A DNA stretch of 42,889 nucleotides from a virus: positions 1 through 42,889 of the IMG/VR virus record IMGVR_UViG_3300042691_034468; one strand, written 5' to 3'. Positions within the stretch are counted from its first letter, which is position 1. The number at the start of each line of letters is the position of its first letter. Positions 7,733 to 31,873 of the stretch are shown one piece after another. The notes beneath the pieces are model-generated. The model did no database searches and was not told where the DNA came from. It worked only from the letters and a program-made list of their open reading frames with translations. The position numbers and the translations under genes are program-made.

Positions 7733-7743
7733 AAGGGTACCTA

Positions 7744-8799: not shown

Positions 8800-8810
8800 A
8801 AAATTAATCC

Positions 8811-9233: not shown

Positions 9234-9234
9234 A

Positions 9235-10518: not shown

Positions 10519-10528
10519 TTTATTTCCT

Positions 10529-10753
10529 CTATATTACTGCTACATATTGAGAATTTTCACAAGAAAAATCTAGAGATATATCACAGGTAGATGCCAATAA
10601 AGCAGGCGGTTCTACCAACAAACTATTTAGATATACAAAACCATCAGAATTATTTAATAATATATTGCCGTTTTGTATTTTAAATTGATAATGTGGTTTA
10701 CTTTTAATAATATTAAAAAAAATATCGTTATTTGTAAACTTTTTATATGACAT
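10529..10753 (-). CDS. Small virion-region protein of unknown function (74 aa)
   Basis: A 74-residue protein reading MSYKKFTNNDIFFNIIKSKP, then HYQFKIQNGNILLNNSDGF. The opening KKFT.NDIF.N.IK..P.Y.F.I.NG is a pattern I recall from short proteins beside tail genes in large aquatic phages, but no function is assigned. The ATG lies one base after the TAA of the 373-residue gene (TAATATG), the same junction type as at 9233. The TAG stop forms part of the ribosome-binding site of the fibre gene that follows. It is probably a small structural or assembly protein; the C-terminus contains two Cys (STCDISLDFSCEN). Confidence 0.65.
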   Translation of the reverse strand: MSYKKFTNNDIFFNIIKSKPHYQFKIQNGNILLNNSDGFVYLNSLLVEPPALLASTCDISLDFSCENSQYVAVI

Positions 10754-10754
10754 A

Positions 10755-12888: not shown

Positions 12889-14916
12889 TTAAGATTTTGT
12901 ATTATAGGTAAAATTTATATTAAAATCTATTATTTTACCAGTTTGTTTAGATTTTATTCTTATTTTAAAATCCCTGTTCCAAACAGATTCCTTATTAATA
13001 CCTAATTTAACAGAATTATTGCTTATATTTTCGAGAACTTTTTGTGCAATTGCTGGCTGTATTTTTATAAAAGCTCTCATCTGTTTAGTATCTACTTTTA
13101 ATTTATTACTTTTATTTAATTCTATAATATTAATATTTGGAATTATAGTTCCATTATCATTTATTATTTCTAATTCATATATATCTGTTGGATTAGACAC
13201 GCTTCCTTGATAATCTATAGAACGAAATGTATAATAATATTTAGTATTTGAATTTATTGAATCTTCAAAAGAAACAGAATAAGAATCTGTTATGTCTATT
13301 ACTTTATATAAATAAGGATCAAAATCAGAATAATTATTTGGTTTAATAATACTACGAAACACTTGATATTGACGTATTGGTATAGAAGAAGAATACTTAA
13401 GACGATCAGAACCAACTGGAACTTGCGATAGCAGTTGCATTAATTGCAGATTCGGTATTTGAGTCACTTCTTTAAGATTAAAAAACTCTATTTTTGCTAT
13501 CTTTTCTCCAGTACCAGCTGTAATGTTGCATTTTATTTTATTTGATACACCAATATATGGTATTAGTTCAATATCTGGATTGATCGGTGGTAATTTATGA
13601 TTTGCTATTGAATCAGCATATTGATTACTGTCTAATTCAAATATTTTTCCAACTGGAGAATAATTATAAAATAATTTAATTCCATTATTAACTAATTGCT
13701 TATTAGTGTATTTGTAGTTATAAGAAAAACTAAAAAGTAATAATTTAATTCTATAAAGATAATTTTTATTTGTATATATTTGTGAATCAATATATTCTAT
13801 TGTATTTTGTGAAATATTTGGTATATAAAAAACTTGTAATAACTTTGGAACACTATCGCTATTATATTCATATTTTTCAATTTTGTAAGCCATCACCTCA
13901 GTATAGTCTTCTTTACCAGATAAAATATGAGCAAAATTTTTTACTTTTGTTTCAGATAAAGAATTTAACTTACTAAAAAACGCTATTGAATCCCCTTGAT
14001 AAGTATTGGTAATAAATCTTTTAAATTGTTCTGACAAAACACATTCTTGAATATTTTTAGTTATAATATTTTTATTAAAATCTTTTTGTATTAAAATATT
14101 TTCTGTATTATTTGAAATAAAAAAATTTATTAATGCTGAATAAACACCTTCATCGTGAATTAAGGATGAGAAATTATTTTCTTCTTTTAAATGTTTATAA
14201 ATTTTTATTTTTGTATTAAATGGAAACTGATCTTTTAAAAAATTATATTTTTTTAAATATTCATCAATGCTTAAATATTTAAATGTACCGTCAGGTTTTT
14301 TTTCAAATCTAAAATAGGAATCATTAATAATAGTTTCAAAATCAGTTTGTAAATTTGTACTAGAAATTATATCTTGTGGATTATTAAAATACTCTTTTGG
14401 GTTATCTGTTACTAAAGTAACTTTATTAATTAAATCATTGTCTATAATATCATAAAAATTAGGTAAGTTTATTTCTGGTATATTTTTATTAATAAATAGA
14501 TAATTTTCATAATCTTTATAAAAATTATTATATTCAAAATCAACGCCAAATAATAGTTTATTTATTCTTGCCAACTCAGAATTAGTTGGTAAATCTGGAT
14601 CTAGTTTTTCTTCATAATGTTTGTTATATTTTATATTAAAATCAGTGAAAACATTTTCTTTTATTTCATCAAACGCATCATTAATTTTTTTAATTGTATT
14701 TTGATCAGAGAGTATTGTTATTTCTCCATCAATTGTCTGATCAGAAAGATTTATATTTTCTTTATTATCAACTAAAGATATATTTCTATTTAATACAATT
14801 TCAAGATTAGAATTTTGAGTACTAATAGCATTTCTAAGTTTATCAAAAGAAAATTCATATATATCTCTTGAAATAATTTTAGATGATTTACCAATTTTTT
14901 GATTTGTGTTTGACAT
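12889..14916 (-). CDS. Tail/baseplate structural protein with an FN3-like domain (675 aa)
   Basis: Residues 1-about 500 are Asn/Lys/Ile-rich with many acidic and aromatic residues, and I see no known domain there. Residues about 510-587 (QYQVFRSIIKP, then DSINSNTKYYYTFRSIDYQG and SNPTDIYELEI) have the strand pattern of a fibronectin type III-like domain. In particular, the NTKYYYTFRSID.QG.SNP segment resembles FN3 F and G strands. The C-terminus (KIRIKSKQTGKIIDFNINF) adds another beta segment. The ATG follows the TAA of the lectin-containing gene by 15 nt. No ribosome-binding site is visible in that AT-only spacer, so translation may be coupled. It is a virion protein by context; the function is unknown. 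Confidence 0.75.
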   Translation of the reverse strand: MSNTNQKIGKSSKIISRDIYEFSFDKLRNAISTQNSNLEIVLNRNISLVDNKENINLSDQTIDGEITILSDQNTIKKINDAFDEIKENVFTDFNIKYNKHYEEKLDPDLPTNSELARINKLLFGVDFEYNNFYKDYENYLFINKNIPEINLPNFYDIIDNDLINKVTLVTDNPKEYFNNPQDIISSTNLQTDFETIINDSYFRFEKKPDGTFKYLSIDEYLKKYNFLKDQFPFNTKIKIYKHLKEENNFSSLIHDEGVYSALINFFISNNTENILIQKDFNKNIITKNIQECVLSEQFKRFITNTYQGDSIAFFSKLNSLSETKVKNFAHILSGKEDYTEVMAYKIEKYEYNSDSVPKLLQVFYIPNISQNTIEYIDSQIYTNKNYLYRIKLLLFSFSYNYKYTNKQLVNNGIKLFYNYSPVGKIFELDSNQYADSIANHKLPPINPDIELIPYIGVSNKIKCNITAGTGEKIAKIEFFNLKEVTQIPNLQLMQLLSQVPVGSDRLKYSSSIPIRQYQVFRSIIKPNNYSDFDPYLYKVIDITDSYSVSFEDSINSNTKYYYTFRSIDYQGSVSNPTDIYELEIINDNGTIIPNINIIELNKSNKLKVDTKQMRAFIKIQPAIAQKVLENISNNSVKLGINKESVWNRDFKIRIKSKQTGKIIDFNINFTYNTKS
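13155..13387 (-). other. FN3-like domain in the 675-aa protein
   Basis: Residues about 510-587: a strand beginning QYQVFR, a loop with YKVIDITDSYSVSFEDSI, then NTKYYYTFRSIDYQG and SNPTDIYELEI. This fits the Y.v.R ... l.p.t.Y.f.v...D..G..S.p pattern of fibronectin type III folds. The assignment is by pattern only. Confidence 0.5.
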
Positions 14917-14931: not shown

Positions 14932-17900
14932 TTATGTAAGTTGACCCTGAAAAGGGGATGGGCCGGTAGATGGTTCAGCGCTATCACCACCCCATAAACC
15001 ATCTAGACGAACTTCTGAGCCTTGTCCTATCGGATTTAAATTCTTAGGTCCATATGAACGCTTGTAAGTACTAGATTCCCATATAGCTACACCACTACCA
15101 TTATATATAACTAAATTACCGTCATCTTGTAAAATCATATAAGAATTAGTATCATTACTATATGGACCCATTCGTAAAATAATTTTACGCGCACTACCAA
15201 CGTATGCATCAATTGTTAATTGACCTTTGTAAAATGCTATTTCATTAATAGTATGGCTCTCTAAGACATTTCCTCCTATCGCTGCAAGGCCAGCAAAACT
15301 AGTTTTTGCTTGATAAATTTTAACATCATGATAATCTATATTCCATAAAACAGTGTCTGTGGTAGTATCTACAATTCTAATTTGATTTCTTGTATTAGCT
15401 TTATTATCTATAGTAAATGCATAACGACCATTTTTAGATTTCAATTGATATTGATCTGCTCCACTAATATCTTTTTTGCCCATTATTTGTCCATGACCAA
15501 TACTATAATGTTTTCCATGACCAAGTATAGGTTCATCAAATTGGCTAATGCTATCTGTAGCATCAACTTCGTCTTTGCTTTTTATGATATTATCTTCTAC
15601 TACTGGCTCTTGCATTTTTGGCGTTCTAGCTTCGTGACGTTTTTTTAATTCATAATAATTATATGCAAGCTTATATATTTTTCCATCTATAAAACTTTCT
15701 CCCGTAGGCTCAAGCCCAAAATCTTTTATAGTTATTGTACCATCTGCAGATATGCTATAGACATTATTACGAGAATTTAGTTCTAAAATAGATGGCGATT
15801 TTTTAAAGCCACCTTTACCATCTGCTACTCTATATATAAAATCGGGTGAAGGTATTTTAGAAGGATTATTAGGATCACCAGTAAAGAAATCTAATACTAT
15901 ATCATCTGCTGGAAAAGCCGCTGGAAATGGATTATTTATAAGCATTCCATATTCGTCTACACGATTATCACCAGTACCTACAAAACCGCCTACCAATATT
16001 ATGGGCGTATCTTCTGGTAATGGTGGCGGATTTGCAATGCCACTTTCTTGTTGATCTTCTATTGCTTGATCTTCTGAACTAGGTGGTAAAGAAAATAAAG
16101 GAATGCTTTCAAAAGATTTAGAATATCTTTCTACAACCGGCTGCACATTTAATAACTGTCTATTTAAAGTATTGGAGCTTTGATTTTTTGGTAATTCTAT
16201 AGTAGCTATAGAAACAGATTTTAATGGATTAATATTAGTAAGAATAAAATATTTATTATATATAGGAAGCTCAATATTATTAAAATTTTGCAAATTAAAA
16301 TCTGGATTATATATGGGAGTTAATCTACATAAATAGTTGTTGGTACCATTTAGAGTATTAACAAGTGTTTTAGTAAGTGGTTGCCAAAGTTCATTTTTTA
16401 TATTACCATTTGGATAAGTTAATATTTCAACCTTATGAATAGTATTAAAAAGTAACAAAAATTTTGAATTTAATGTTAAATCATTCAAATATTTAAAATC
16501 ATTTTGAAAAACTTTAGATTTATTTCTAAAAATTAGCTCTGCACAAGGTGGCAAAGTTGATAATATTTCTAAATATTTAGGATCAGAATCATCGACTGTA
16601 TTTTTAGTTATTTGTTTATTATTAAAATCATTTTTTTCTAAATTTAAATTTTTTGATAAAGACAGAAACAGCAAAATTGGATCACAATTATTATTATCTT
16701 GAATAGTAGAAGAATTATTATTTTGTCTCTGATTTAATAAATCATTATTATAGATAAGAGAATTAGGATTTACAATACCAAAATTACTGAATAATGAATT
16801 CATTTTTTGTTTTAATGTTTGAATTTCTGGTTTTAATTGATTATTAGTATTAGAAATTTTATATTGATCATTTTGATTATTTGAAAACAAATAGTTCTTT
16901 ATATCTAATTCAATTTCTGAATAGTTAAAAGAATCATAATAATTTATGTCTGAATCAATATTATTAAGATTTAATATAAAGTTTTTAGAATTTATAATTT
17001 CTGGCGCTACGAAGCCTATGGATCTATCTATCTGTTCGGGAAATAATGAATTATCGCCACCATATCTTTTAATATCATTTAAAATTTTATTTTTATACAC
17101 TTCACCTGTAATCTGCCCCAAACCACTTTCAGTGCTTAGGTCTAAAAATGAATAGCCTATATTAATTTTTTTATTACAATCAATTATTTCATTCTTAAAC
17201 CAATTTTCAACTTCTATAAAAGTATTAGTATTGTTATTTATTAACATACTAATTTGATTAGTAAATTTTGTATGAGTTTGTAAAAAATAGTTTATAGTAG
17301 ATGTTGTAGCTATAGCGGGATTGATCATATTAACTAAAGATAATATAACCTGTTCTTCGTTAATATCTTTATTAAAGAACTTTATAACTGATACCATCAA
17401 CTTAACTGCTTCTAATAAATCTCTTTCAAAGTTTTGTTTATAAACAAAAGATTTAAAATAATTTGTGAACTTGTCGGCTATAACATCATAATAGCCATTT
17501 AAGCTTATTATCCTTGATTCGTTATGAGGGTAGAAATTTTCTACAAAATCACCAGTAGAAACGGTTTTATGAGTTTGCTCAAGATAATTTTTAATTATTA
17601 CATTATGTTTATTTAATAAATCTACAACGCGTTGTAAATACTGTGTGAAACCATCAAGTAAACTTATTTGCACACCGTATTCATAAAAACCACTAGTTTT
17701 TAAAAAAATCTTTTTATCTACAGCTTCAAAAGTTATAAAATCACTTGTATTATCAGTAGATAAATCTATTTGTTTTATACTACCATCAATGGTATCTTTT
17801 TCCTGTATATAATCACCAATTTGACCCGATTCTATTACTTTAATATATGAATTTTCTGCTTTATCGTATAAAGTTTTATCTTTTTTATCTGTTTGCCTTC

Positions 17901-18789
17901 TAAGAATTTTTATTGATGATATCTTGCATTGTTTTAAATATTGATCACCCAAAGGAGAATCAATAAAATTATTTATATATTGAGAATTCTCTTTTAATAA
18001 TTTATATTTGTTTACATTAAATAAAATTCCTAAATTACCATCAAGTTTTCTGGAAAAATAGCCATTTGAAAAGTACTGTCCTATTTTAACATTTTTAAAC
18101 TGTTTTTCAGATAGAAGTTTTAAAACCTTACTATAGCTTTCTTGTTGTATAAGAGAATCAAAATTTAAATTTTTATTAAATATAGAATTTACGACTCTTA
18201 AATCTTGTACAGCAGAAAAAGACAATATTTGAGAATTTTGAAATATATTAATGACTTTTATAGTTCCAAATAATGTTTTTTCTGAAGTTTCAGACGGCTT
18301 CGTTTCATTTTCATTGCTATAGTCTGAATAATCATAATAAAAAACTATACCAACAGAGTAATTATTTAAATTATTACTAGTAGAATATTGCGAATCATAT
18401 TTTAAAGTTATAAAACCATTTTCTAAATAATGAAAATTTTTATTTTTTATATCACCAACAAAATCATATCCAGCATTTATATTTACATAATTTAATTTAT
18501 TATTGTAAATAAATTTGTTTAATTTTGTAATAGAATCGATATTAGATAAAGAAGTTTTTTGTTGTTCGTTTAATATCTCAAAAACTTTAATTTTCATATA
18601 CTTTTTTGTATTTAAAATATTAAATATTTTTGGTTGTTTGTAAGAATCACGAACAGAAATGGAAAACTTAATTAAATTAGAATTATTGTCGCTATTAATA
18701 ATAAATGAACTTAATTCAAAATCATTAATTAAAGGAAATAATAAATTTTTAGAATTTATAACTTCTTGTTGTGAAAATTTAAAAAACAT
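14932..18789 (-). CDS. Large tail/baseplate protein with C-terminal bulb-type mannose lectin domain (1285 aa)
   Basis: The first about 1000 residues are Asn/Lys/Ile/Ser-rich with no domain I recognise; the N-terminus (MFFKFSQQEVINSKNLLFPL) shows no signal peptide. About residues 925-960 form a Pro/Glu-rich linker (SLPPSSEDQAIEDQQESG, then NPPPLPEDTP). Residues about 1091-1245 form a bulb-type (B-)lectin domain. SKNGRYAFTID...VLWN is a degenerate first repeat. SYMILQDDGNLVIYNGSG followed by IWESST is a canonical second repeat containing QDDGNLVIY, which fits the mannose-binding motif QxDxNxVxY. This predicts binding of mannose-type or other cell-surface sugars. The ribosome-binding site overlaps the TAG stop of the preceding gene (TAGGA). 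The rest of the protein is probably a baseplate-anchored scaffold. Confidence 0.8.
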   Translation of the reverse strand: MFFKFSQQEVINSKNLLFPLINDFELSSFIINSDNNSNLIKFSISVRDSYKQPKIFNILNTKKYMKIKVFEILNEQQKTSLSNIDSITKLNKFIYNNKLNYVNINAGYDFVGDIKNKNFHYLENGFITLKYDSQYSTSNNLNNYSVGIVFYYDYSDYSNENETKPSETSEKTLFGTIKVINIFQNSQILSFSAVQDLRVVNSIFNKNLNFDSLIQQESYSKVLKLLSEKQFKNVKIGQYFSNGYFSRKLDGNLGILFNVNKYKLLKENSQYINNFIDSPLGDQYLKQCKISSIKILRRQTDKKDKTLYDKAENSYIKVIESGQIGDYIQEKDTIDGSIKQIDLSTDNTSDFITFEAVDKKIFLKTSGFYEYGVQISLLDGFTQYLQRVVDLLNKHNVIIKNYLEQTHKTVSTGDFVENFYPHNESRIISLNGYYDVIADKFTNYFKSFVYKQNFERDLLEAVKLMVSVIKFFNKDINEEQVILSLVNMINPAIATTSTINYFLQTHTKFTNQISMLINNNTNTFIEVENWFKNEIIDCNKKINIGYSFLDLSTESGLGQITGEVYKNKILNDIKRYGGDNSLFPEQIDRSIGFVAPEIINSKNFILNLNNIDSDINYYDSFNYSEIELDIKNYLFSNNQNDQYKISNTNNQLKPEIQTLKQKMNSLFSNFGIVNPNSLIYNNDLLNQRQNNNSSTIQDNNNCDPILLFLSLSKNLNLEKNDFNNKQITKNTVDDSDPKYLEILSTLPPCAELIFRNKSKVFQNDFKYLNDLTLNSKFLLLFNTIHKVEILTYPNGNIKNELWQPLTKTLVNTLNGTNNYLCRLTPIYNPDFNLQNFNNIELPIYNKYFILTNINPLKSVSIATIELPKNQSSNTLNRQLLNVQPVVERYSKSFESIPLFSLPPSSEDQAIEDQQESGIANPPPLPEDTPIILVGGFVGTGDNRVDEYGMLINNPFPAAFPADDIVLDFFTGDPNNPSKIPSPDFIYRVADGKGGFKKSPSILELNSRNNVYSISADGTITIKDFGLEPTGESFIDGKIYKLAYNYYELKKRHEARTPKMQEPVVEDNIIKSKDEVDATDSISQFDEPILGHGKHYSIGHGQIMGKKDISGADQYQLKSKNGRYAFTIDNKANTRNQIRIVDTTTDTVLWNIDYHDVKIYQAKTSFAGLAAIGGNVLESHTINEIAFYKGQLTIDAYVGSARKIILRMGPYSNDTNSYMILQDDGNLVIYNGSGVAIWESSTYKRSYGPKNLNPIGQGSEVRLDGLWGGDSAEPSTGPSPFQGQLT
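15055..15519 (-). other. Bulb-type (B-)lectin domain
   Basis: Residues about 1091-1245 of the 1285-residue protein. The intact sugar-binding motif Q-D-D-G-N-L-V-I-Y lies at residues 1221-1229 (15103-15129). It is preceded by a SYMIL strand and followed by a WESST strand, as in monocot mannose-binding lectins and bacterial B-lectin proteins. The first repeat keeps NGRYAFTID and VLWN but has lost the full motif, so a single functional pocket per chain is likely. Confidence 0.75.
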
Positions 18790-18800
18790 TTATTTTATTC

Positions 18801-19772
18801 CTAATTTTGCTGTAAGTCTGGACAACATGGATTCTCTGGATCTGGACATGGTGGTATAACGACATCAGAATCATATATAGTAATTTTAGCTTTTGCTTCT
18901 GGAGGTAATTCTATTTCATCGTCTACTAATATTTCAAAAAAATGTTCAACAAAACTAGAGTCTTCTAATTCTGGTGCTTGGGATATATAATTATCTTCTG
19001 GAACTGTTAATAAAATATTATTTTTTATATATGTTGGTTTTTTACGAAAACTTAATTGTTTCCAAGATGATTCTTCTGGAGAGATTTGTTCTTTTATAAA
19101 AACTTCAATTTCAAAATTTTCTTTTATATCATCAACATTATTTTCTATTATTCCAATTAAATTATAACTTTCTTTATAAAAAGCGTAAGAAGATAAATCA
19201 GCCGTTGCACCAAGTAAGGTAAAATTCTTTTCATCAGTAGTTGGAACATCAGAAAAGATTATTTCATATAAATTTTTTTCTAATGTTATTTGTGGAATGT
19301 TTATAAAAGATAAGGCACCAGAAACTATTCCTGTCAAACGAGGTTTATAATTACTTGTATCTACTAAGCCATTACCATTAACAAATTGCACACTCCAAGC
19401 AGGTAAATATTCTTTATCATATGATGATTTACCCAAAGGTAACGTAGAAGCAAAAAATTTTTCAGTAGAAAAGCTATTCTCTTTTCTTAATAAAGAATCT
19501 GGAGCATAGAAATCAAGAATTTCTGTCGTATTAACCCTTTCTTCTGCTCCGACAAATGAATATTGTGGTTTAAAAGTTGGCGTATCATCTAAAATTCTTG
19601 CCTGAATACTATTTTGAGATTCAGTAAGCATTATATACGAGGAATCATAAACTATTTCATCATCAAAAAAAGCATAGTATTCAGGTTTAAATTTGCCTTT
19701 TGATAACAAATATTTACCATGATTTGTTAATTCAATATCTATTATTTCTTCTTTAGAATCAAAAAACGACAT
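18801..19772 (-). CDS. Conserved phage virion protein, N-terminal paralogue of the protein at 11887 (323 aa)
   Basis: The start MSFFDSKEEIIDIELTNHGK, YLLSKGKF and FFDDEIVYD matches the first about 48 residues of the 324-residue protein at 11887-12861. The middle is a mixed alpha/beta region with acidic stretches. The C-terminus is odd: IPPCPDPENPCCPDLQQN has four Cys within ten residues of a Pro-rich tail, although the rest of the protein has few Cys. It lies between the 3554-residue wedge protein and the lectin protein, and its TAG stop is part of the ribosome-binding site of the lectin gene. A structural or assembly role at the baseplate is likely from context; no catalytic motif is seen. 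Confidence 0.75.
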   Translation of the reverse strand: MSFFDSKEEIIDIELTNHGKYLLSKGKFKPEYYAFFDDEIVYDSSYIMLTESQNSIQARILDDTPTFKPQYSFVGAEERVNTTEILDFYAPDSLLRKENSFSTEKFFASTLPLGKSSYDKEYLPAWSVQFVNGNGLVDTSNYKPRLTGIVSGALSFINIPQITLEKNLYEIIFSDVPTTDEKNFTLLGATADLSSYAFYKESYNLIGIIENNVDDIKENFEIEVFIKEQISPEESSWKQLSFRKKPTYIKNNILLTVPEDNYISQAPELEDSSFVEHFFEILVDDEIELPPEAKAKITIYDSDVVIPPCPDPENPCCPDLQQN

Positions 19773-19781
19773 ATAATTTAC

Positions 19782-22700
19782 CTATATTTTAATTTTTTTA
19801 CTAATAAAATTACTAAGAGCATTATTTACTGGTTTTATTGTTAAGTTATCAGATCTCGTTAATATATTTTGTATATTTTTTTGTATAGAATTATCATTTT
19901 TATTTATTATGTTAAAACCAGATTCTAATTTAGCTTCTATATTAACTAGTTCCACAAGAGAAAAGAAATCATAAGGCCAATTATAAGAATAATCTGGTGT
20001 TATTGCCTCTTGAGAATTACCAAGAACAAACTTAAATCTATCATCGTCAGATGAATTTAATGTTAAATCATAATAATTATTTTTTGCTTTTTTCTTAACT
20101 TTAAATACCTTCCAACGAATATCTGGTGGTGGGGTTTTGCCTTCAAAAAATTCATTATTGTTTAATTCATGAGTAAAGTTAACATTTTCTAGCTCTGGAT
20201 TCATAGCTATTTTTGGCATAATACCTTGCCAAATATCTGCTAGATCTTGTTGATCTAATGTGTGTTTAAATTCTAAAATATACATTACAAAAGGTTCTAT
20301 AGATCTGTTAGTTACCCAATCTAAATGATTGGGAATATTATATTCTGTCATTAATTTAACAGTTTTATAAATAGAATTATTACTGACACTTGTATTTGTG
20401 GATTGTTTTGTAATTGCTTTTTTAATAATATCAATTGTAGTAGAAGGATTGCTAAACGGTAACTCTAATATATTATTAATTGTTGTAGAATTAATTCCAA
20501 AATAATATGGACCTTTTCCTATATCCTTTGAAAGAATAATATCATTTTCACCCAAAATCTCAGGTATTGTTCTAGCATATAATCCAGTATTATCGTGATT
20601 TTTATATCTTTCTGTATATGGTATTAATACTATTGCTTCGCTTATTTCTTTATTTTTAGCTATTTGACCTATGTTTTTTGTATCGGGTAAGAATCCTAAT
20701 TTGTTTGACAAACTTTGAGTTACAGAATATATTTCATTTGCTACTGTTGGAGATTCCAAAGTAAGTTTTATGGAATTATTTGTTGGTATCTCTCCATAGC
20801 CGCTCCACATACCTAACATAGAGTTTTTTATATAATAATTATAATGATCAGTTCTAAAAAATAGTGGGAACCCAGTGCTCGTAGAACTAAATGATGAAGT
20901 GATAAAATTGGTATAATATAATTGATTTTTATTTAAATCATTATTAAAGTTTAGTATGGGAGTTTCAAATCTTGTTTGAATAACCCATGCTTTTTTATCA
21001 CCACTAATAACAATTGGATAACCATTAGCATCATATTGAACATCTTTTACATTTGTCATACCGTCAAGTTTTATAGATGCAGATAGTGGCATTCTACCAA
21101 CATATGATGGAGAATTTATATAAGAGGCTGATACTTTATTAACATTAGATCTAATATCTTGACTACCTAAAGTAAATAATTTTTCTAGATCGTCTGATGT
21201 TTCTTCATATTTTACATTACTCATTATTTCTTCTAGATCGTATGATCTTCCAGTATCAGTATCACTAGATTTAGTAATATCCAAATAAATTTTTACTTTT
21301 CGTTCTCCGTGAAAATATGGAGGAACATAAGGTGCATATGCTGGATCTTTGTATAATCTGTGTGAATAGCTATTTTCTGCTTGATCAGAAATATCAAAAT
21401 ATCTAAAAGGTGGACCAAACACAGAAGCTTCTGGGATGTTTATATAATCATTTCTTAAAGAATCAAAGACTCTAACACCAACATCATCAAAACGTATTTT
21501 AGAACTAGTATTCGCTAAAACCATTTTTAAATCTGTGTCTTTTGAAAGAACTAAATACATTTCATAACGTTTATCCGGTAGCAAAAAATATGGTCCCGGT
21601 TTAGAAATGAATGAATTTAATTGTCCATTTTGTAAGAAAAAGTTTGGTATTTCTGCTAAATAATTATTTATGGCTAATCTATAACGTTCATCTAGATATT
21701 CCGATGATTTATTTTTTCTATTTTCATTAGTTAGATTATAGCTTGGATTTCTTATTAGATTACGATCAGAACCACTTATTACGTCTACTGATAATCTTGT
21801 AGGATCTAAATAAAATAAAGCTTTTTCTTTGATCTGCTCAGAAGAAAATGCAGTATTAAAATCTAGCAAAGATTCAAATGGCATTCTTGTAGTTGGAGCT
21901 TTATCAATCATGAATTGATACATATTTTCAGTAATATCATATGAAGAAGTCGATTTGTTATATATTGTTAATGAAGATGTAATTGAGGCATTAGAATATA
22001 AACTGGAGCTATATGGGATAGTTCCAGTATTTTCTAAAATAACAGGCCAATCAACAGCAATACCGGATTTTATAGTGTTATATAAAATACCCGGTGCAAA
22101 CATAGTTTGCAATACAGCTTGCATTTGTTGTAATATAGGAGTACCACCAGTTGTTCCACTTAAGTTACTTGTTGCAAATAATGATAAATCTGTATTTGAA
22201 TTCTCTAAGTTTTGAAAATCTGTATAATTTTCAAAACCAAAGAAGCTTTTTTGAAATAAGTCTACTATTTGTAAGCTTCTGTCACTAGGATAAAAACCTT
22301 TATACGGTAATAATTTTTTAATTCCATTTACTTTTAATGTTAAAAGTTTATTACCCTTATTAACATCATCATAAATAAATGTATTAACAATCTCTGTATT
22401 ATTATTACTTGAGCTTAAGTTAATAAAATCTTTAGTTGCCCCATACAAACTTAAGTAACTACCAGTAATTAATACTTTGAAATCTCCTTTGTTTTGTTTT
22501 ACAAAGAAATCCATATGATCAGATACTTTATATTCAGAGACATTTGAATACTTAGAAGACATTGGAGCAATGTTTTCAAAATATTCATCATATGAATTAT
22601 ACCAAGGATTTTTTCCAGCAATTATATTTGTTTTATAAGCAAATCCTTCATTGATAAACAAATAAGAGCTATATTCTGTATATGAAATATCAGTTTCAGT

Positions 22701-25700
22701 AATAGCAGTGGTTGCTGGTAAATGAATTTTATTTACTAATGATGGCTTAGGTCTAGTAATATAGTGTCTAGTTATATCACTATCTAAATTATATTGATCA
22801 AAATAATTAAAATATTCTATCGTAGATTCCGTAGTTGTACCTTCCAAAGCCTTAGAGACATATTTATATGAACCACTAAAAGGCATTTTCATATATTCTA
22901 CAAGTTCAAATAAATCATCTGCTCCAGCTAAATCAGATGCGTAAGAAGAATTTATAAATATAGAACTTGTTCCTCCTGTAGACAGAATAATACTTGGAAC
23001 ACTATAGCTAATGCTAGATGTATTATCTAAAGGCCAAACAGTATCAAAATTATTAACTAAGCTTTTTGTAACAGAAAGCTTAACATTATCAAATATTCTA
23101 TAAGAAGTGGATCTTCTTATAGAAGAACTATAATTTGATACACTAGAACCAGTTATAAATCTATAGTCTTTTATATTTAAAGAATTAACAGAACTGCTAA
23201 TTGTATTTATCAAACTAGCACTGATTGCATTTGTTCTTAATCTATCATCAATACTGTCTTTCCAAATAGTATTAATATTAGCAACATTTCTATCGTATCC
23301 GCTATTAGAAAACCCTGAAACTTCGGAATAGTTATCTTTATAACGAATGTCTATTGATGTTATATCTTTTTCTTTTGGATAAATTATTTGTTCATACGTA
23401 GAATTTAATATTTCAGATTTTGGAGTATATTGTCCATTTTCTAAGTTTTTAAATATATCGTGCGCTTGGAAAGTACTTTTTTCACTTAACTCTAATCTTG
23501 TTGATAGTTCATTATTGGCAAAGTATTTTTTATTATTATCATAACTAGAAATAATTTCTACAGGATCTTTAGAACCAGTTACTATAATATTGTGTTTTAT
23601 TGGTTTATTAAATGTAACAACTGGCTCTTTATATTTTGTAAAAGTTAAACCTTTATTTCTTATAAATTCCTCTCTTGTTCCATCTTCATTAATTTTAATT
23701 TCAATTATTGGCTTATCTTGAACAGTAATATAATTTAATTTCTTTAAATATTTATTAAATTTGTTTTCTGCTGTTCTTGTTTGTTGCCAAGAGGCATGTT
23801 GATAAGGACCATTTAAATTTAATAAATAATCATTTAAACCATAAGAGGCAGTATAAGAAGATGAGTTATTAAATGTTATAAGACTAGATGATAAATCAAT
23901 ATCTAATTGTAAATCAGTGAAATAATAATCTGATGAAGCATTAGATCTGATGCCGAGATAATTTGTAAATTCCTGTCTATTAATTATTGTTGGGGTTTGT
24001 TTATCCCATGTTAATTGGAAACCGCTAGCTAGAATATTATTAGAAGTCCATGTAACTAAAAAATTAGAACCAGTATACTCTAAAGAGCTTGTTATATTGC
24101 TACCAAATGTTCTAGAAGGATATGTTAATTCATTATATTTTGAAGCATTAAAGAAATTAAATTGCAATTTCTTTCCTACATCATACATATAAGAAGGTTG
24201 TGGTGCAAAGATTTTGCCGTGATTAGGATTAGAAAATGGTAAATTTTTACCTATATTAATATTACCAATAAATAATATATTTTCTCCAGAACCATCACCA
24301 GAATTATCAATTCCCATTAATTCGCCATTACCAACTACGGGGGCAAAATAATTGTCTGTATCATATTGTGTATTATACCTTAATAGGGTAGTTTTAGATA
24401 ACCTAGAAGATAAATATTTGGGGTTATTAGCATCAATTTTATAAAAATATTCACCAACAGTATAAACATAGTTACCTATTAAAAAGAAAAACCCTTCAGA
24501 TTCTTCAGCTCGATAGACGTTTCTTTCACCATCAACAGGAGTATCGACACCGCCAGTAACATGTGAAAAAGTTTGTGTAACGGTATCATAACTAGAAACC
24601 GCTAGACTACTATCATATGAACTAGAACCAGATCTTTGACTTCCTATACCATACATCCATATTTTTGAATCGCTAGCAATAATTTTAGTGGCATGTCTAA
24701 TATTTCGTATTGGTTGATTAGCAGGTGAAGTACCTCTAACAATAGTATAAAATGAATCATGTGGCACAGGAGTTTTTGATCCATCAGAATTTATTTTGAT
24801 CATTGTCCAAGCGCGATCATCATTAAGATTACCACTTAAATCTTGACCTGCAACATATAAATCATAACCACTAGAATTTTGCACAAAAGTATGCACTAAA
24901 GGAGCTGTAGTCGTTATACCATCTTCTGGAAATCTAAACGACAATTGAGTATATAGCGATCCAACGCAGAATCTTGGCGATGCAGGATCTATACTAAAGC
25001 GTGTAATATTTCTTTCATTGTTTCTTCCATAATAAGAATCAGGATATATTGTGTCGCCGTTGTCATCTCTAAGAAAAGCATTTATTACACCTATATCTCC
25101 ATTAGATTGAGTTAAATTATCAAATGTAAAAAATCTAATCTCTCTTCCGACTCTATATTTGTCACCTGTTTCTGAATCAGCAATATTTTTCAAACCGGCT
25201 TGAGTATAAGTATATGGATCGTTATTAACTTTTGCATTTGCAAAAGTATTCCATTGTTTTTTTGTTAAATTATAAATTGATATAGCGTTATTATTGCCAT
25301 TATATATTTGATTACGATTACTATAATTTCTAGAGCCATGTGAAAAAATTAAGTAATCATGTTCATTAAATCTAGTATATAAAACGTCGTATGGTACCCA
25401 CCAACTAGCAGTGTGTGGAGAACCATATGGACCATCAGAGCTACCAGCAAATACATCATAATATGTTTTAGTTTCGTAATTATAAGCAAAAGCACCATAT
25501 ACTGATGTTACGCCAGCAACAGAGCTTGTTATTTGTGTAAAATTACCAACAACAAATATAGTACTACCACTAATGTCCATACCGTGAATTGTCGTTGGAT
25601 CTTCAACAACATATGGATAAATACTTGGACTATTAATCTTCATGCTATCTAGACAACCAGAAACATAAAATGGTGCTTCTGTTCCTCCATTAACAGCCGT

Positions 25701-28700
25701 GGCAGCATACCATGTATCTGGAAAAACAAAACTACCGCTTTCTAATAATGTTGGATCATCAGCAAAATAAACTCTCATTTTGCTATATAAATTACCACTA
25801 ATAGAAGAACTAATACTACTAGAAAGGCTATAAGTAATGTTTATACCAGTATCATATGTTTGACCATTTGAAGAAGTGGGAATAACAGTGAAATAATATT
25901 TTTCGTTTGCTCCATAATTTGATGTGTAGCCAGAATCATATAGCGTACCACGATAATTCGTACTTGAAGAAATAGAATTAGACATGCTATATGGAAGTAA
26001 AGAAGTAATAGGAATTTCATATTCTATAAATTTAAGATTACCAGATAAAATAGATAAATCTAGACTATTATATTCATCATTTGAATAACCGCTAAAACTA
26101 TTAGTATTCTCATTAGAAGCCTTTATCCATGTATAACCAGTATCGCTTCTAGGAATGGCATGAACAACAAATTCGTTATCATATTGATAATTTATGTTAC
26201 TTCCACTCGCATTAGCAGGATATTTAGCAACATTTTTATTAACTTTATGATATGAAGGATTATTACTATCAATACTAGAAGTTTCTGCCAGCCATGTATT
26301 TAAAATTTTTCTAACTTTATAATTTCTATAATTAGTGCTGTTATAAGCAGAATATTCTTCTGCGGCTTCGTCTAAAGCACCTCTACTTAAAACCTCTGGG
26401 CTACCCGGAGCACTAAAACGCTCAACTATTATAGACTCATTCAAGCTTCTAGATGGCAAAGTTCTATCATAAAATCCTAGATTTATACCACTAACAGTTG
26501 CAATTGTAGACGAACCAGAAACATTTCCTTCTAACTGTGTAAAAGATTTATTATTAGTAATACGACCAGTACCCTGTAAAAATTCGTATGTTTTATTATA
26601 GGTATTTATTTTTTTAACTGGTTGAACAATCTGTCCAGATGCTGTAAGACTTGCAGAAGCAAATACAAATTCTGTATTTGATTTAGATTTAATAATATCT
26701 ACAGGTTCTATGGAATTTTCAACTACTAATAATTTATCAGTTAAAAATTTATAAGGTTTATTAAATATTCTTAAAATATCTTTTTTGCCTTCATAAAAAT
26801 TTTGCGTATCATCACTATAAAATGTTGGTGCTTTATATAAATTAGTATAATTTATTACTTGACGAATTTTTTCTCTATCAATATCGTTTTGCGGCTCCAG
26901 CGGAGTATTAACATATTCATCTCCAACTAAACCTTCTGTTGTTCTGGCAACTCGTTTTTTTAACCATAGACTTCCAGCAGGACTACTAGGAGCATTTTGT
27001 AATGTATATGAAAAATCAATACCATTTGAAGCAGCTAAGGCAACTATTTCACCTTTAAATTCTAATGTAGGTAATTTATTTTGGTATTTATTTCTTTGTA
27101 AAATAGTATTTTCAACAATATTTCTTACTTTATCAGAACTATTAGAAGAAAAAGGTAGTAACTGATAAATCATCTGTGAAATAGATGAATCTATCCATTT
27201 ATAAAAATCAAAAAACTTTTCAAAATCTGGTGTATTTGAAACTCTAGAATAGAATAATTTTCTGAGATTGGTTAATTTGCTATATTCTTTTTTATATCTT
27301 TCTATTGGCTCACCAATTAAATTATTAAATTCATTGATAGTAGAGAACCAATTTATAATTTCATTATTAACAACTTCTGACATGCTCTTTTCTAGAGAAA
27401 TATAATAGTTTATTGGTTTAGAGCTTTTTTCTCTAGTAACATCATCAGTTGCGGGTATCGATATAAGATCATTACCGTTTAAGTTTTCAAAAAATTGTAA
27501 TTTTGCAGTATGTAAATAATCTTTATTAATAACTTGAGTGCTATTTGTTGGAAAATTATATCCCAATCCAGAAAATTTCTGGTTTGACATATATCCCAGC
27601 CAATCAAATGCAAAATTAAAATTATTTTGCTTTGAGCCAGAAGAAAAATCATTTATAGTGAATTGTCCTAAATTATTAGAAGAAGTAATATCAGAAAAAT
27701 TCCAATTTAAGATAAGTGTATCGGCCTTAGTAAAAGTATTAACAGTGCCAGAAATATCATCTATTGTACTATATGGAGAAGATTTCAAATAATGCGGAAC
27801 CCAAGTTGCATTCTTTACACCATAGTTTTCAATGTCATATGAATGCATTAATAATTCATCGTTAGAAATATAGTCTAACCAATATCTTACTTGTGAAACT
27901 TTAATATCACTTTTTTGTAGTGTTTCTTCGGTAAAATTATTTAAATGAGCGCCTGCATATATTCTTTTATTAGTTTGTAAGGAAGAAATAGCATTAGTTT
28001 TTGGTATTGATGCAGAAAGAACAAAAGAACTGTTCTGCTCTGTATCTAATAAACTATTAATTCCTACAAACTCTAATAAATAATCTTTATTATCGCTTCC
28101 TGTAACTGTATAAGCTTCATATAGATTTACTGGATGTACTCTAACGGCAAAATTCCATTTTGTATCGTCGTAGACATCATTATACCAACTAGACGTTAAT
28201 TCTACTCCATACCCATCAAATGATCCGGTTAGTTTAAAATATACATCTTTGCTATCTAATTCTCTTTTTATAGCATATACTTGAAAATTATATTTTTCAT
28301 TTCCCCATGTAAAATCATTTTCAAATGGTTCAGCCGTATGAATACCAAACAGCGACACTTCAGTAAAATTAGCTAGCCAATAATCAGTAAATTCAGTAGT
28401 TAATTTTTTGGGAAATATTATCTCTGCTTCTAAAGTTGTTGGTATATTGTATATATATGGATAAGAGCTAGAAACAACATTAGCTATAGAAGAGTTTTTT
28501 AAACTATAAGGCAAATAACCAATAGTTGTATTATCGCCAGAAATAATATTTTGAAATATTGTAGCTTCATATGTTTCTGGGCTGTTAAAATTAATAACTT
28601 TCTTGGGTCTAGAAGAGTAAATAAATTTATCTTTTATTTCAAACTCTGAGTTGTTGGCATAAAGGTTTATTTTTATTAATTCGTCATCTACACCAAAGCA

Positions 28701-30446
28701 TCTAATTAGGTTTCTTAACGATTCCTCAGTGCCTTTTGATTTATATATGTGAGATAGGTTATTATAGATATTTTGATAAATAATATTTTTTACATTTGAC
28801 AGTTTATCATCAAAATTTTTATTTTCGTTTTTAGAAAGGATTTCTTCAATGAATGTTGCTTCACTAAATAAATCACTAATTTCAAAACCATAAGATGATA
28901 AAATTTGATTAATAAACGGCTTTGGTTTATCAGATGATCCATCATATTTAATAGATTTTATATCTGGTAAACTTTGTATTTGAATGTGTAAGCTGTCAAA
29001 ATAACTAGAAATAATTTGAATTAAATTTGATAAATCGTTTAGATCTTTGGACTCAGCTTCTTCGATTATCCAACTTGGTAAAGATTTATAAATATTACTA
29101 GAATTTTCTTGATCGTATATAGACCCAGAAATACTATATTCTTCTAAAATATTAACAACTAAATTATTGGAAGAATAGATTATTGGATCTTTTGTTTCTT
29201 TTGTAGAAAGAAAATATTCATCAATCGCAGATCCTGTATTTCTACAAGTTAAAGAATAATTATTTATATTACCATTAGATATTCTACCGGAATAATCCAA
29301 AATTATTTTATCAATTTCATTTATGGCCGAAGTATTAATAATACCTTCATTAAATTTAAAATATATACCAAGTTCAGTGTTGGAATCATCTGTATTAGAT
29401 CCGCCACCTACAGAATCAAACCAATTTCTAAATATTTGTTGTGAACTCCTACATTCTTTCCAAAATCTAAATTCATCATAATAACCACAAGAAGAACCTA
29501 AAGTATTATAAATGGTAGAAACGCCCGAAGAATCTGCTTGATAGCAGCCAATATAAGCTTTTAATCCTAGATTATTTGCTAATTTAATATTTCCAGAAGA
29601 ATTATAAACTTCTTTAATTTGTAAATTTCCATCTACATATAAGCATACTTCTAAATTAGAAGAATTATTTATATCATTTTTAAAAGTAAAAGCATAATGA
29701 TGCCAATTATACGGATCAAAATTATAATCAATTGTTGTTAATGGTAATCCAGAAGTTCCTGAAATATATGAAACAGAAAAATTATTTTCATTTAAATTAT
29801 AATTTTTTCTTATTGTTAATCTAGTATAATCGGAACTACCACTAGCTATACCATTCCATAAATCAAATAAACAATATTCAGCAGATGACAAAGCACTTCC
29901 AGATTCAACGGAATCTTTAAACCAAAACTCTATTGTATTACCAAACTGCGTAATTCCTAAATTAGACTCTCTATTCTTAGAAATATCATATATATTACCA
30001 GTTTCAAACTTATTATCTGCACCAGCGTTTGGACCACCAAATACAGAAATATATTGTGGTAAAGAAGAAGATCTAATATTGCTACTAACAACAACATTAG
30101 AACCACTTAATAATACATAACCAGTAGTTTTTGGATAAACATTATCTAATACATACAGATCAAATTGAGAAGAATTATTTTTCCATTCTTCTTTTTCTTT
30201 TCTAGAACCGTCATAAGGATATCTTTGATAAATATTTTTTATTGCATCTACATAATATTTTTCTGCAGAGCCATATCTAGCAAAATTTTCAGCTTTAGAA
30301 AAATCAACAGATGGTAAAAATCTATTTTTATCTTCAACAATCTGGTCTAAATATCCTTCAGATTCTGCTTGATCATATAATTGCTGTAATTGGCTATTAC
30401 TAACAATTTTATCTGCTTTTTTATCAAATAAATCTTTTAATGACAT
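19782..30446 (-). CDS. Giant baseplate wedge protein, gp7/P2-gpI-like core with inserted LamG and beta-propeller-like domains (3554 aa)
   Basis: This one gene fills a quarter of the window. Residues about 165-345 form a LamG/concanavalin-like sandwich (TIEFWFKD, NWHHYAFTF, LYVDG, YYDEFRFW). Residues about 455-590 include LSHIYKSKGTEESLRNLIRC followed by FGV, the KGT...L...FG motif of P2 gpI-type tail proteins; the N-terminal part of T4 gp7 is related to gpI. Residues about 1610-2070 hold beta-propeller-like blades (IFVVGNFTQITS, LYVAGQDLSG, IWMYGIGSQ, FFLIGNYVY, ILFIGNINIG). The last about 1500 residues contain motifs I recall from giant virion proteins of aquatic phages, such as KVNGIKKLLPYKGFYP and FAPGILYNTIKSGIAVDWP. 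T4 gp7 has 1032 residues. It follows the gp6-like gene by one gene, so it is the likely third wedge partner, with surface domains added. Confidence 0.75.
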   Translation of the reverse strand: MSLKDLFDKKADKIVSNSQLQQLYDQAESEGYLDQIVEDKNRFLPSVDFSKAENFARYGSAEKYYVDAIKNIYQRYPYDGSRKEKEEWKNNSSQFDLYVLDNVYPKTTGYVLLSGSNVVVSSNIRSSSLPQYISVFGGPNAGADNKFETGNIYDISKNRESNLGITQFGNTIEFWFKDSVESGSALSSAEYCLFDLWNGIASGSSDYTRLTIRKNYNLNENNFSVSYISGTSGLPLTTIDYNFDPYNWHHYAFTFKNDINNSSNLEVCLYVDGNLQIKEVYNSSGNIKLANNLGLKAYIGCYQADSSGVSTIYNTLGSSCGYYDEFRFWKECRSSQQIFRNWFDSVGGGSNTDDSNTELGIYFKFNEGIINTSAINEIDKIILDYSGRISNGNINNYSLTCRNTGSAIDEYFLSTKETKDPIIYSSNNLVVNILEEYSISGSIYDQENSSNIYKSLPSWIIEEAESKDLNDLSNLIQIISSYFDSLHIQIQSLPDIKSIKYDGSSDKPKPFINQILSSYGFEISDLFSEATFIEEILSKNENKNFDDKLSNVKNIIYQNIYNNLSHIYKSKGTEESLRNLIRCFGVDDELIKINLYANNSEFEIKDKFIYSSRPKKVINFNSPETYEATIFQNIISGDNTTIGYLPYSLKNSSIANVVSSSYPYIYNIPTTLEAEIIFPKKLTTEFTDYWLANFTEVSLFGIHTAEPFENDFTWGNEKYNFQVYAIKRELDSKDVYFKLTGSFDGYGVELTSSWYNDVYDDTKWNFAVRVHPVNLYEAYTVTGSDNKDYLLEFVGINSLLDTEQNSSFVLSASIPKTNAISSLQTNKRIYAGAHLNNFTEETLQKSDIKVSQVRYWLDYISNDELLMHSYDIENYGVKNATWVPHYLKSSPYSTIDDISGTVNTFTKADTLILNWNFSDITSSNNLGQFTINDFSSGSKQNNFNFAFDWLGYMSNQKFSGLGYNFPTNSTQVINKDYLHTAKLQFFENLNGNDLISIPATDDVTREKSSKPINYYISLEKSMSEVVNNEIINWFSTINEFNNLIGEPIERYKKEYSKLTNLRKLFYSRVSNTPDFEKFFDFYKWIDSSISQMIYQLLPFSSNSSDKVRNIVENTILQRNKYQNKLPTLEFKGEIVALAASNGIDFSYTLQNAPSSPAGSLWLKKRVARTTEGLVGDEYVNTPLEPQNDIDREKIRQVINYTNLYKAPTFYSDDTQNFYEGKKDILRIFNKPYKFLTDKLLVVENSIEPVDIIKSKSNTEFVFASASLTASGQIVQPVKKINTYNKTYEFLQGTGRITNNKSFTQLEGNVSGSSTIATVSGINLGFYDRTLPSRSLNESIIVERFSAPGSPEVLSRGALDEAAEEYSAYNSTNYRNYKVRKILNTWLAETSSIDSNNPSYHKVNKNVAKYPANASGSNINYQYDNEFVVHAIPRSDTGYTWIKASNENTNSFSGYSNDEYNSLDLSILSGNLKFIEYEIPITSLLPYSMSNSISSSTNYRGTLYDSGYTSNYGANEKYYFTVIPTSSNGQTYDTGINITYSLSSSISSSISGNLYSKMRVYFADDPTLLESGSFVFPDTWYAATAVNGGTEAPFYVSGCLDSMKINSPSIYPYVVEDPTTIHGMDISGSTIFVVGNFTQITSSVAGVTSVYGAFAYNYETKTYYDVFAGSSDGPYGSPHTASWWVPYDVLYTRFNEHDYLIFSHGSRNYSNRNQIYNGNNNAISIYNLTKKQWNTFANAKVNNDPYTYTQAGLKNIADSETGDKYRVGREIRFFTFDNLTQSNGDIGVINAFLRDDNGDTIYPDSYYGRNNERNITRFSIDPASPRFCVGSLYTQLSFRFPEDGITTTAPLVHTFVQNSSGYDLYVAGQDLSGNLNDDRAWTMIKINSDGSKTPVPHDSFYTIVRGTSPANQPIRNIRHATKIIASDSKIWMYGIGSQRSGSSSYDSSLAVSSYDTVTQTFSHVTGGVDTPVDGERNVYRAEESEGFFFLIGNYVYTVGEYFYKIDANNPKYLSSRLSKTTLLRYNTQYDTDNYFAPVVGNGELMGIDNSGDGSGENILFIGNINIGKNLPFSNPNHGKIFAPQPSYMYDVGKKLQFNFFNASKYNELTYPSRTFGSNITSSLEYTGSNFLVTWTSNNILASGFQLTWDKQTPTIINRQEFTNYLGIRSNASSDYYFTDLQLDIDLSSSLITFNNSSSYTASYGLNDYLLNLNGPYQHASWQQTRTAENKFNKYLKKLNYITVQDKPIIEIKINEDGTREEFIRNKGLTFTKYKEPVVTFNKPIKHNIIVTGSKDPVEIISSYDNNKKYFANNELSTRLELSEKSTFQAHDIFKNLENGQYTPKSEILNSTYEQIIYPKEKDITSIDIRYKDNYSEVSGFSNSGYDRNVANINTIWKDSIDDRLRTNAISASLINTISSSVNSLNIKDYRFITGSSVSNYSSSIRRSTSYRIFDNVKLSVTKSLVNNFDTVWPLDNTSSISYSVPSIILSTGGTSSIFINSSYASDLAGADDLFELVEYMKMPFSGSYKYVSKALEGTTTESTIEYFNYFDQYNLDSDITRHYITRPKPSLVNKIHLPATTAITETDISYTEYSSYLFINEGFAYKTNIIAGKNPWYNSYDEYFENIAPMSSKYSNVSEYKVSDHMDFFVKQNKGDFKVLITGSYLSLYGATKDFINLSSSNNNTEIVNTFIYDDVNKGNKLLTLKVNGIKKLLPYKGFYPSDRSLQIVDLFQKSFFGFENYTDFQNLENSNTDLSLFATSNLSGTTGGTPILQQMQAVLQTMFAPGILYNTIKSGIAVDWPVILENTGTIPYSSSLYSNASITSSLTIYNKSTSSYDITENMYQFMIDKAPTTRMPFESLLDFNTAFSSEQIKEKALFYLDPTRLSVDVISGSDRNLIRNPSYNLTNENRKNKSSEYLDERYRLAINNYLAEIPNFFLQNGQLNSFISKPGPYFLLPDKRYEMYLVLSKDTDLKMVLANTSSKIRFDDVGVRVFDSLRNDYINIPEASVFGPPFRYFDISDQAENSYSHRLYKDPAYAPYVPPYFHGERKVKIYLDITKSSDTDTGRSYDLEEIMSNVKYEETSDDLEKLFTLGSQDIRSNVNKVSASYINSPSYVGRMPLSASIKLDGMTNVKDVQYDANGYPIVISGDKKAWVIQTRFETPILNFNNDLNKNQLYYTNFITSSFSSTSTGFPLFFRTDHYNYYIKNSMLGMWSGYGEIPTNNSIKLTLESPTVANEIYSVTQSLSNKLGFLPDTKNIGQIAKNKEISEAIVLIPYTERYKNHDNTGLYARTIPEILGENDIILSKDIGKGPYYFGINSTTINNILELPFSNPSTTIDIIKKAITKQSTNTSVSNNSIYKTVKLMTEYNIPNHLDWVTNRSIEPFVMYILEFKHTLDQQDLADIWQGIMPKIAMNPELENVNFTHELNNNEFFEGKTPPPDIRWKVFKVKKKAKNNYYDLTLNSSDDDRFKFVLGNSQEAITPDYSYNWPYDFFSLVELVNIEAKLESGFNIINKNDNSIQKNIQNILTRSDNLTIKPVNNALSNFISKKIKI
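24235..25615 (-). other. Beta-propeller-like region in the 3554-aa protein
   Basis: Residues about 1610-2070 contain several blade-like segments in which a hydrophobic strand IFVVG, LYVAG, IWMYG or ILFIG is followed about 20-30 residues later by a second strand such as YNYETKTYYDVF or YDTVTQTFSHVTG. This is the look of delta-60 or Kelch-like repeats. Blade count and closure cannot be settled by eye. Confidence 0.5.
28677..29084 (-). other. Tail protein I / gp7-like conserved segment
   Basis: Residues about 455-590 start LPSWIIEEAESKD and end with YKSKGTEESLRNLIRCFGV. The invariant-looking KGT followed by a helix and FG is typical of the P2 gpI family, which pairs with J-like (gp6) wedge proteins. 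This segment is the main reason to call the giant protein a wedge component. Confidence 0.6.
29412..29954 (-). other. LamG/concanavalin-like domain
   Basis: Residues about 165-345 of the giant wedge protein: NTIEFWFKD, LFDLWNG, a WHHYAFTF strand, LYVDGNLQIKEVY, LGLKAYIG and GYYDEFRFWKECRSSQQI. This is the strand order of LamG_3-type jelly rolls, many of which bind carbohydrates. No calcium or sugar ligand residues can be fixed by eye. Confidence 0.7.
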
Positions 30447-30448
30447 TT

Positions 30449-31873
30449 TTAAGAAATCCTAAACTTAAATATATTTCTAAATTCTTTTAATTCACTACCG
30501 TCCCAAATAGCTAATTTTATACCATATCCATAATCTTTTTCAAGAATTTTCATATCAAAATCAAAATAATTTCCATTAGAATCGTATGAAGTCTTAGTAT
30601 AAGCTAAAGAACCGGTTGAATAATCTACTATTGTATAATTATCATTAAATCTAAAAATTTTATAATATAAATTAGGAATTGTTATATTTTCAATGCTATC
30701 GTATGCTTTAGAATAAATTGTTGGTTGCCAATCTTGTTTTCTAATAAATATTTTAAATTTTGCCTGTTCATTATTATCATAATATGACTTTAAATTAAAA
30801 ATATTGATAACATATTGTTCATCATTATTATAATCATAATTAGTTCTTTGATATACGTCAAAAGAACTAGAAAAACAAGGCACAAGAGAGGAGGAAATAA
30901 ACCATTTATCATATACGACGCTAGCGGTTGTATTTAAAGAAACTTGTGATTTATAAACACCAGATAAGGGATTAGAAACCAACGAATAAGAAGCAGAAAT
31001 TTGTTGTGTATATTCTGAATCAGAGTAGAATTTAACAATTAAATTGGGTGAATTATTAATGTTTTTTAATAAACCATTGATTTTATTATAAAAATATAAG
31101 TTCATTATATTATCTTCTGCCGATAGAAGGCTACTAGACGCATAAAAAGATATTCTGTCGTCGGTTACAGAAGGATTCCATCTAACTTCTAAACAAGGTC
31201 TATTAAAATAAAACTCAGATGTTCTTGAAGAAAATCTTTTAGTATAAAAACTTTCATTAGCTGTACCATTTTCAGCTGATCCAGATAGAAATACTAAAAA
31301 TCCATTATTTTCTACAGTATTATTGATCCATTTTTCGCAAATATCAGTAACATCTAATTCAATATCTTCTAAGCCACTGTAAAATGATTGGCTTAATATA
31401 TAAGAACCGGTATAATAATCGCCTCCTTGATTAAACCAATAATAGTCTCTTTGTGAAAATAACCAATTAGATCCTTCGCCGTTATAATACTGTGAAAAAC
31501 CATAATCAGAATAAGAATCTAAATCAACGCCATAGCCTTCAACCCACGCGCCGCTAACTGGTGCTACGTTAACAGTAAAATTTCTTGGTACTGTAAAAGG
31601 ATGCTCTACGTTAAACATTCTTAAATAAAATTTTGTACTACCAGAAGCGGGAATAGCACCAGAATTTCTATCAGAAATTATATTATTAATAGGGAATTCA
31701 ATTAAAATTCTTGATTTCTCTAACGATGCAGATGTAGCTTGTCCTAGAATAGAGAAAATTTCTAAAGAATCTGCTGCACCCATATTAGCTTCTTTGGCTC
31801 TATTAATTAAACCCTCTACAAAAGCATCAGTTATAGTAGTATCTTTTGATGCAATATATCTTTTTATGGACAT
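30449..31873 (-). CDS. Baseplate-associated protein with N-terminal DNRLRE/CBM96-like domain (474 aa)
   Basis: Residues about 5-232 follow the DNRLRE/CBM96 pattern: an opening KDTTITDAF and NMGAADSLEIF, a SRILIEFPI strand, a KFYLRMFNV strand, VNVAPVSGAWVEGYGVDLD, then IELDVTDICEKWINN, NNGFLVFLSG, FSSR and NRPCLEVRW. In bacterial proteins such domains bind polysaccharides. The C-terminal half (235-474) is beta-rich with aromatic residues and may anchor it to the wedge. Its ATG overlaps the last base of the gp6-like TAA stop (TAATG), so both are translated together. The giant wedge gene begins two bases after its stop. This tight coupling places it in the wedge complex, where no equivalent is known to me in T4. 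Confidence 0.75.
   Translation of the reverse strand: MSIKRYIASKDTTITDAFVEGLINRAKEANMGAADSLEIFSILGQATSASLEKSRILIEFPINNIISDRNSGAIPASGSTKFYLRMFNVEHPFTVPRNFTVNVAPVSGAWVEGYGVDLDSYSDYGFSQYYNGEGSNWLFSQRDYYWFNQGGDYYTGSYILSQSFYSGLEDIELDVTDICEKWINNTVENNGFLVFLSGSAENGTANESFYTKRFSSRTSEFYFNRPCLEVRWNPSVTDDRISFYASSSLLSAEDNIMNLYFYNKINGLLKNINNSPNLIVKFYSDSEYTQQISASYSLVSNPLSGVYKSQVSLNTTASVVYDKWFISSSLVPCFSSSFDVYQRTNYDYNNDEQYVINIFNLKSYYDNNEQAKFKIFIRKQDWQPTIYSKAYDSIENITIPNLYYKIFRFNDNYTIVDYSTGSLAYTKTSYDSNGNYFDFDMKILEKDYGYGIKLAIWDGSELKEFRNIFKFRIS
31178..31861 (-). other. DNRLRE/CBM96-like carbohydrate-binding-type domain
   Basis: Residues about 5-232 of the 474-residue protein. Key landmarks are GAWVEGYG (family W.eG), LDVTDICEKW (family LDVT..v..W), NNGFLVFLSG, and RPCLEVRW (family RP.L.V.Y) at the expected distances. 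Assigned by motif order only. Confidence 0.6.

Follow-up and report, generated by a model that had tools for sequence, protein, structure and literature searches.

The 42.9-kb virus record analysed here (the window, 42,889 nucleotides), whose large genes all lie on the minus strand, probably comes from a distant branch of the T4-type myoviruses and holds its operon for the wedge and outer baseplate, with wedge proteins that bear glycan-binding modules. The folds of three of these modules, a DNRLRE domain, a LamG domain and a B-lectin, are established by homology or by fold. The modules appear to form two layers: conserved and perhaps partly architectural sugar-binding folds, and accessory modules that are exchangeable between relatives. 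The exchangeable layer comprises a slot in a giant protein, the B-lectin tip of a 1285-aa protein and, in one relative, a LamG domain in the DNRLRE loop. The initial annotation had read four sugar-binding folds into four consecutive genes. The genes are all present beside the wedge genes gp25 and gp6 and three of the four carry such a fold, while one of the four named folds, a beta-propeller, stays unproven.

Wedge core and gene order

Homologues of gp25 and gp6 adjoin in the window, as is characteristic of T4-type wedges, and their homology identifies them as the wedge core (Table 1). By gp6, Microcystis phage Mel-JY01 and Flavobacterium phages from the immuto group are the closest cultured relatives, at about 31% identity over the full length. 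Related viral contigs repeat the order gp25 - gp6 - DNRLRE protein - giant protein - 323 aa - 1285 aa - 675 aa. Among the 52 loci with gp6, 47 show the direct order gp25-gp6-DNRLRE, and the giant protein comes next in 38 of these 47; the counts refer to loci and not to independent viruses, since several loci share contigs. In close relatives the downstream succession is 323-1285-675-324-373, and marine relatives are more divergent. The order gp25-gp6-DNRLRE is also kept in Flavobacterium phage immuto and in Mel-JY01. A 1964-aa protein (34090-39984, minus strand) situated between a 289-aa protein and gp25 is kept in close relatives and has no match in a PHROG search.

Table 1. Features of the baseplate operon in the window, from the wedge core downstream
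Feature	Coordinates	Strand	Basis
gp25-like baseplate wedge protein, 126 aa	33695..34075	-	Pfam GPW_gp25 1.1e-14; phrog_261 4e-24
gp6-like baseplate wedge protein, 601 aa	31873..33678	-	phrog_219 baseplate wedge subunit 1.4e-17; full-length homologues in immuto and Mel-JY01
474-aa DNRLRE protein, the next gene after gp6	30449..31873	-	order gp25-gp6-DNRLRE in 47/52 gp6 loci
DNRLRE/CBM96-type domain, residues 1-235, followed by Ig-rich C-terminal half	31169..31873	-	NCBIfam in relatives; model; PDB 8wab; BFVD
Giant protein, 3554 aa, candidate gpI/gp7-like wedge subunit	19782..30446	-	position after gp6 and DNRLRE gene
LamG domain 1 (LamG1), residues 125-345	29412..30074	-	PF13385; model; Foldseek
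gpI-like region, residues 441-620, invariant K.KGT	28587..29126	-	invariant K569, K571, G572, T573
Second LamG-like beta-sandwich, residues 665-870	27837..28454	-	model
Accessory slot, residues about 1475-2140, insert without family ('propeller-like')	24027..26024	-	no homologues; relatives empty or with propeller/LamG
Conserved C-terminal module, residues 2200-3508, encoded by its own gene in some relatives	19923..23849	-	L009/L069, L011/L063, L013/L066, L054
323-aa protein, paralogue of 11887-12861	18801..19772	-	no family match
1285-aa tail protein, conserved over residues 1-855 and variable at the C-terminus	14932..18789	-	comparison with relatives
B-lectin tip, residues 1090-1250; QDDGNLVIY at 15103-15129	15040..15522	-	PDB bulb lectins, best 6e-9
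675-aa conserved tail protein	12889..14916	-	conserved in relatives

Sugar-binding folds and the accessory slot

The DNRLRE/CBM96-like domain ascribed to the 474-aa protein is corroborated by its relatives and by its predicted structure. The protein itself scores 24.7 bits with the family profile, below the cut-off of 34; matches to the NCBIfam profile, accepted at E up to 0.01, were found in 22 of 28 relatives (best 5.6e-8). The model (pLDDT 78.5) has as its top PDB match 8wab, a chondroitin-sulfate-binding CBM (E 1.4e-7, TMt 0.71), followed by many Ig-domain proteins, a sequence of matches that fits a DNRLRE domain joined to an Ig-rich half. Fold matches in BFVD include phage proteins named CBM96. 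In the relative L013, a LamG domain (2.8e-16) is inserted within a loop of the DNRLRE domain.

Relatives conserve two parts of the giant protein, its residues 1-1470 and 2200-3508, and the stretch 1500-2150 lacks homologues. The LamG-like domain claimed for this protein holds: within the N-terminal 1160 aa, PF13385 (Laminin_G_3) scores 31.3 bits against a cut-off of 27.6, and the beta-sandwich model (pLDDT mostly 80-90) finds lectins and pentraxins in Foldseek. PF13385 is found in 17 of 29 members (best 5.8e-15), and LamG1 occurs across the clade; in the outgroup homologues it was undetectable. The second LamG-like sandwich is seen in the model only, at pLDDT mostly 85-93 and with Foldseek matches that span two LG domains; it has no Pfam match, and profile comparison of LamG1 with LamG2 gave no significant result. 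The gpI-like region has a KGT...R motif that aligns in register with P2 gpI, at a weak hhalign score (E about 0.03-0.04), and Pfam Tail_P2_I appears below threshold in two relatives. Foldseek with the giant-protein model, in which the gpI-like region is predicted at low confidence, matched no wedge structure. Gene order and the weak motif lead us to propose that the giant protein may be the equivalent of gpI/gp7. Like P2 gpI and T4 gp7 it lies downstream of gp6, but it is several times larger and has no significant sequence match to them. Several relatives encode the giant protein as two genes, divided at varying points (L059 60-4298, L009/L069, L063, L066, L054), and the second gene then begins with a new N-terminal stretch, of about 437 aa in L059 for instance.

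Between the conserved parts of the giant protein, the window carries about 660 residues more than six relatives (L002, L025, L026, L028, L035 and L048), which have at most about 65. Other relatives fill the region (residues about 1400-2200) with recognizable domains: a Rax2 beta-propeller in L005 (7.9e-9) and LamG in L038 (1.3e-8) and L047 (4.8e-7). Further LamG insertions lie near the slot in L010 and L011, and a Reelin subrepeat in the same general region of L014. The insert of the window has no match in Pfam, PDB, phage records or the viral-contig scan, and the beta-propeller that had been assigned to it was not recovered, as no propeller family matched in the Pfam, PDB and phage searches. 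Homology to the propeller region of L005 was considered and rejected, the best E-value being 0.024. Since L005 holds a Rax2 propeller at the slot, a propeller in the window is plausible by position and unproven.

The B-lectin attributed to the 1285-aa protein forms its variable C-terminal tip. Bulb-type-lectin-fold proteins or lectin bacteriocins account for 31 of its 33 PDB sequence matches, and QDDGNLVIY (residue 1221) fits the QxDxNxVxY sugar-site signature, which is thus intact. The Pfam B_lectin score is 17.2 bits against a cut-off of 32.4, with one repeat matched rather than three subdomains. Among the relatives examined, the tip is common only to the window and L056 (39% identity over 75 columns); it is missing from the C-termini of nine further relatives that were read, and phage records hold no match to it. 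A GNA lectin usually has three sugar sites. The tip shares the QxDxNxVxY signature with bulb-type (GNA) lectins and the LlpA/putidacin bacteriocins, but unlike GNA lectins it has one complete sugar site, placed at the end of a tail protein. The family profile of the 1285-aa protein matched no solved structure, and its conserved part has no wedge-family match. A viral-contig scan returned no relatives of this protein; relatives were found instead within operon-bearing contigs.

The GC content of the accessory modules differs from its comparison value (0.32 against 0.27 for the insert, about 0.35 against about 0.22 for the B-lectin tip). We did not take this contrast to indicate recent transfer, because GC at third codon positions is nearly equal (0.15 against 0.13); it mostly reflects amino-acid composition.

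Role of the modules and known systems

The most likely interpretation of the sequences and models is a wedge that grips glycans. The DNRLRE protein and the giant protein would build outward from the gp25/gp6 core, as gene order and the weak motif suggest, and the constant DNRLRE and LamG domains would form a fixed part of the baseplate rim. The 660-aa insert and the B-lectin tip, presumably exchanged between relatives, might tune which surface polysaccharide is gripped while the baseplate settles on the cell. We infer that both the DNRLRE protein and the giant protein belong to the wedge as subunits, and that the modules face outward and bind host glycans. The main argument for outward-facing binding, as opposed to a buried role, is that relatives exchange modules at fixed sites. 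The combination of fixed and site-swapped modules suggests that the phage holds host surface sugars by an exchangeable grip, like the one shown for Bacillus phages.

LamG and DNRLRE folds can also mediate protein-protein contacts. The two might therefore be architectural connectors of the wedge that have lost sugar binding, leaving the insert and the B-lectin tip, if anything, to touch the host, an explanation to which we give appreciable but minority weight. Both domains occur in the whole clade and evolve almost in step with the adjacent scaffold, at close to its level of conservation, which is the main argument for a structural role; the DNRLRE protein adjoins gp6 even in distant isolates. 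Against a purely architectural role, relatives insert extra LamG domains in the DNRLRE loop and beside the core, which suggests that these positions are exposed, and the failure to detect LamG1 in the outgroup homologues indicates that the wedge can probably do without it. A structural role and outward-facing binding may both hold. Of the glycan-adhesive baseplate of the initial annotation, the several sugar-binding folds within a baseplate operon are upheld, with the qualification that DNRLRE and LamG1 may be partly structural.

Another explanation, which we regard as rather unlikely, makes the 1285-aa protein and its tip a tail fibre or spike and the operon a mixed structural cluster. It draws on the want of any wedge-family or solved-structure match for the conserved part of the protein and on the fibre-like genes downstream (225-11876); the place of the gene between those of the 323-aa and 675-aa proteins, next to the giant protein, is nevertheless kept in the relatives that were readable. 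It is very improbable that the set of lectins arose by chance, from common beta-sandwich folds read into unrelated sequences. The DNRLRE and B-lectin scores of the window do fall below curated cut-offs, and the propeller and FN3 claims lack support, but many relatives score well for DNRLRE and LamG, fold searches agree, and nearly every PDB match of the tip is a bulb-type lectin; these results disfavour the explanation. Tail fibres are the usual guide to the host range of contractile phages. A broader version of the glycan-gripping wedge, which we advance tentatively as the less probable form, would extend to the whole lineage: a constant gp6-DNRLRE-giant-protein scaffold with fixed slots for swapped whole lectin modules (propeller, LamG, B-lectin), in which the baseplate and not the fibres would set sugar specificity at the irreversible step.

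The combined system had been thought to lack a described precedent, but the Herelleviridae phages Vp4 and Deep-Blue have CBM-rich baseplates, and of their homologous wedge proteins the CBM-bearing Gp119 of Vp4 decorates host cells while Gp177 does not (PMC11406892). They resemble the window in the contractile tail, in several carbohydrate-binding folds in baseplate or wedge proteins and in the presence or absence of CBMs between homologues; they differ in their Bacillus hosts and in the CBM16, CBM22 and xylan-binding types, and the available text describes neither a DNRLRE protein beside gp6 nor a giant LamG protein (PMC11406892). Relative to this work, the set of folds, the lineage and the slot architecture are new; CBM-rich baseplates, wedge homologues with or without CBMs and cell binding by a CBM-bearing wedge protein had already been published (PMC11406892). 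The baseplate operons of pelagimyophages likewise contain carbohydrate-binding domains, including concanavalin A domains (PMC7029224). Pelagimyophages and cyanomyophages, which are marine T4-type phages, share with the window such domains in a structural operon; that study puts VrlC forward as a substitute for gp7, and the protein set of the window does not figure in the available text (PMC7029224).

Immuto and Mel-JY01 have gp6, a DNRLRE orthologue of 369-386 aa (QQO92077 in immuto), one more protein and then a KGT-region protein of 1265-1336 aa (in immuto QQO92079, 1265 aa), far shorter than the 3554 aa of the window. A relative of the 324-aa protein comes directly after this KGT-region protein or one gene later. 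Unlike in the window, LamG1 and a 1285-aa protein with a B-lectin tip were not detected in them. A literature search found no paper on Mel-JY01, and a paper on Baltic Flavobacterium phages makes no mention of immuto. If exchangeable sugar-binding wedge modules do operate in aquatic phages, host prediction should take in the baseplate. The slot positions offer a direct way to examine its role in host range, and in the two cultured relatives the scaffold can be reached by proteomics and cryo-EM.

Adjoining genes and the fibre region

The 323-aa protein had been counted among the lectin-type genes as a member of a paralogue family. Its paralogue exists at 11887-12861; the protein itself has no family match and no evidence of a lectin, and its family profile matches no solved structure. 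The two paralogues (both on the minus strand) flank the 1285/675 pair and share the N-terminus LT..G...L..G.F...YAF.DDEI.Y, and a relative is present in both immuto and Mel-JY01. An FN3-like domain claimed for the 675-aa protein found no supporting match in family searches, and the family profile of this protein also matches no solved structure.

A C-terminal motif (GLYSPDNELLAVAKLSEPLKK...LRVRLDY) is common to the fibre-region proteins 10755-11876 and 6469-7440 (minus strand), and five consecutive genes of Mel-JY01 (L051 26990-35936) match it. The motif suggests that different fibre proteins share one type of end, used for attachment or maturation. Near the end of the window, the fibre-type genes 225-3260 and 3814-5262 (minus strand) vary strongly in number and length between relatives and form a second variable region, possibly in contact with the host.
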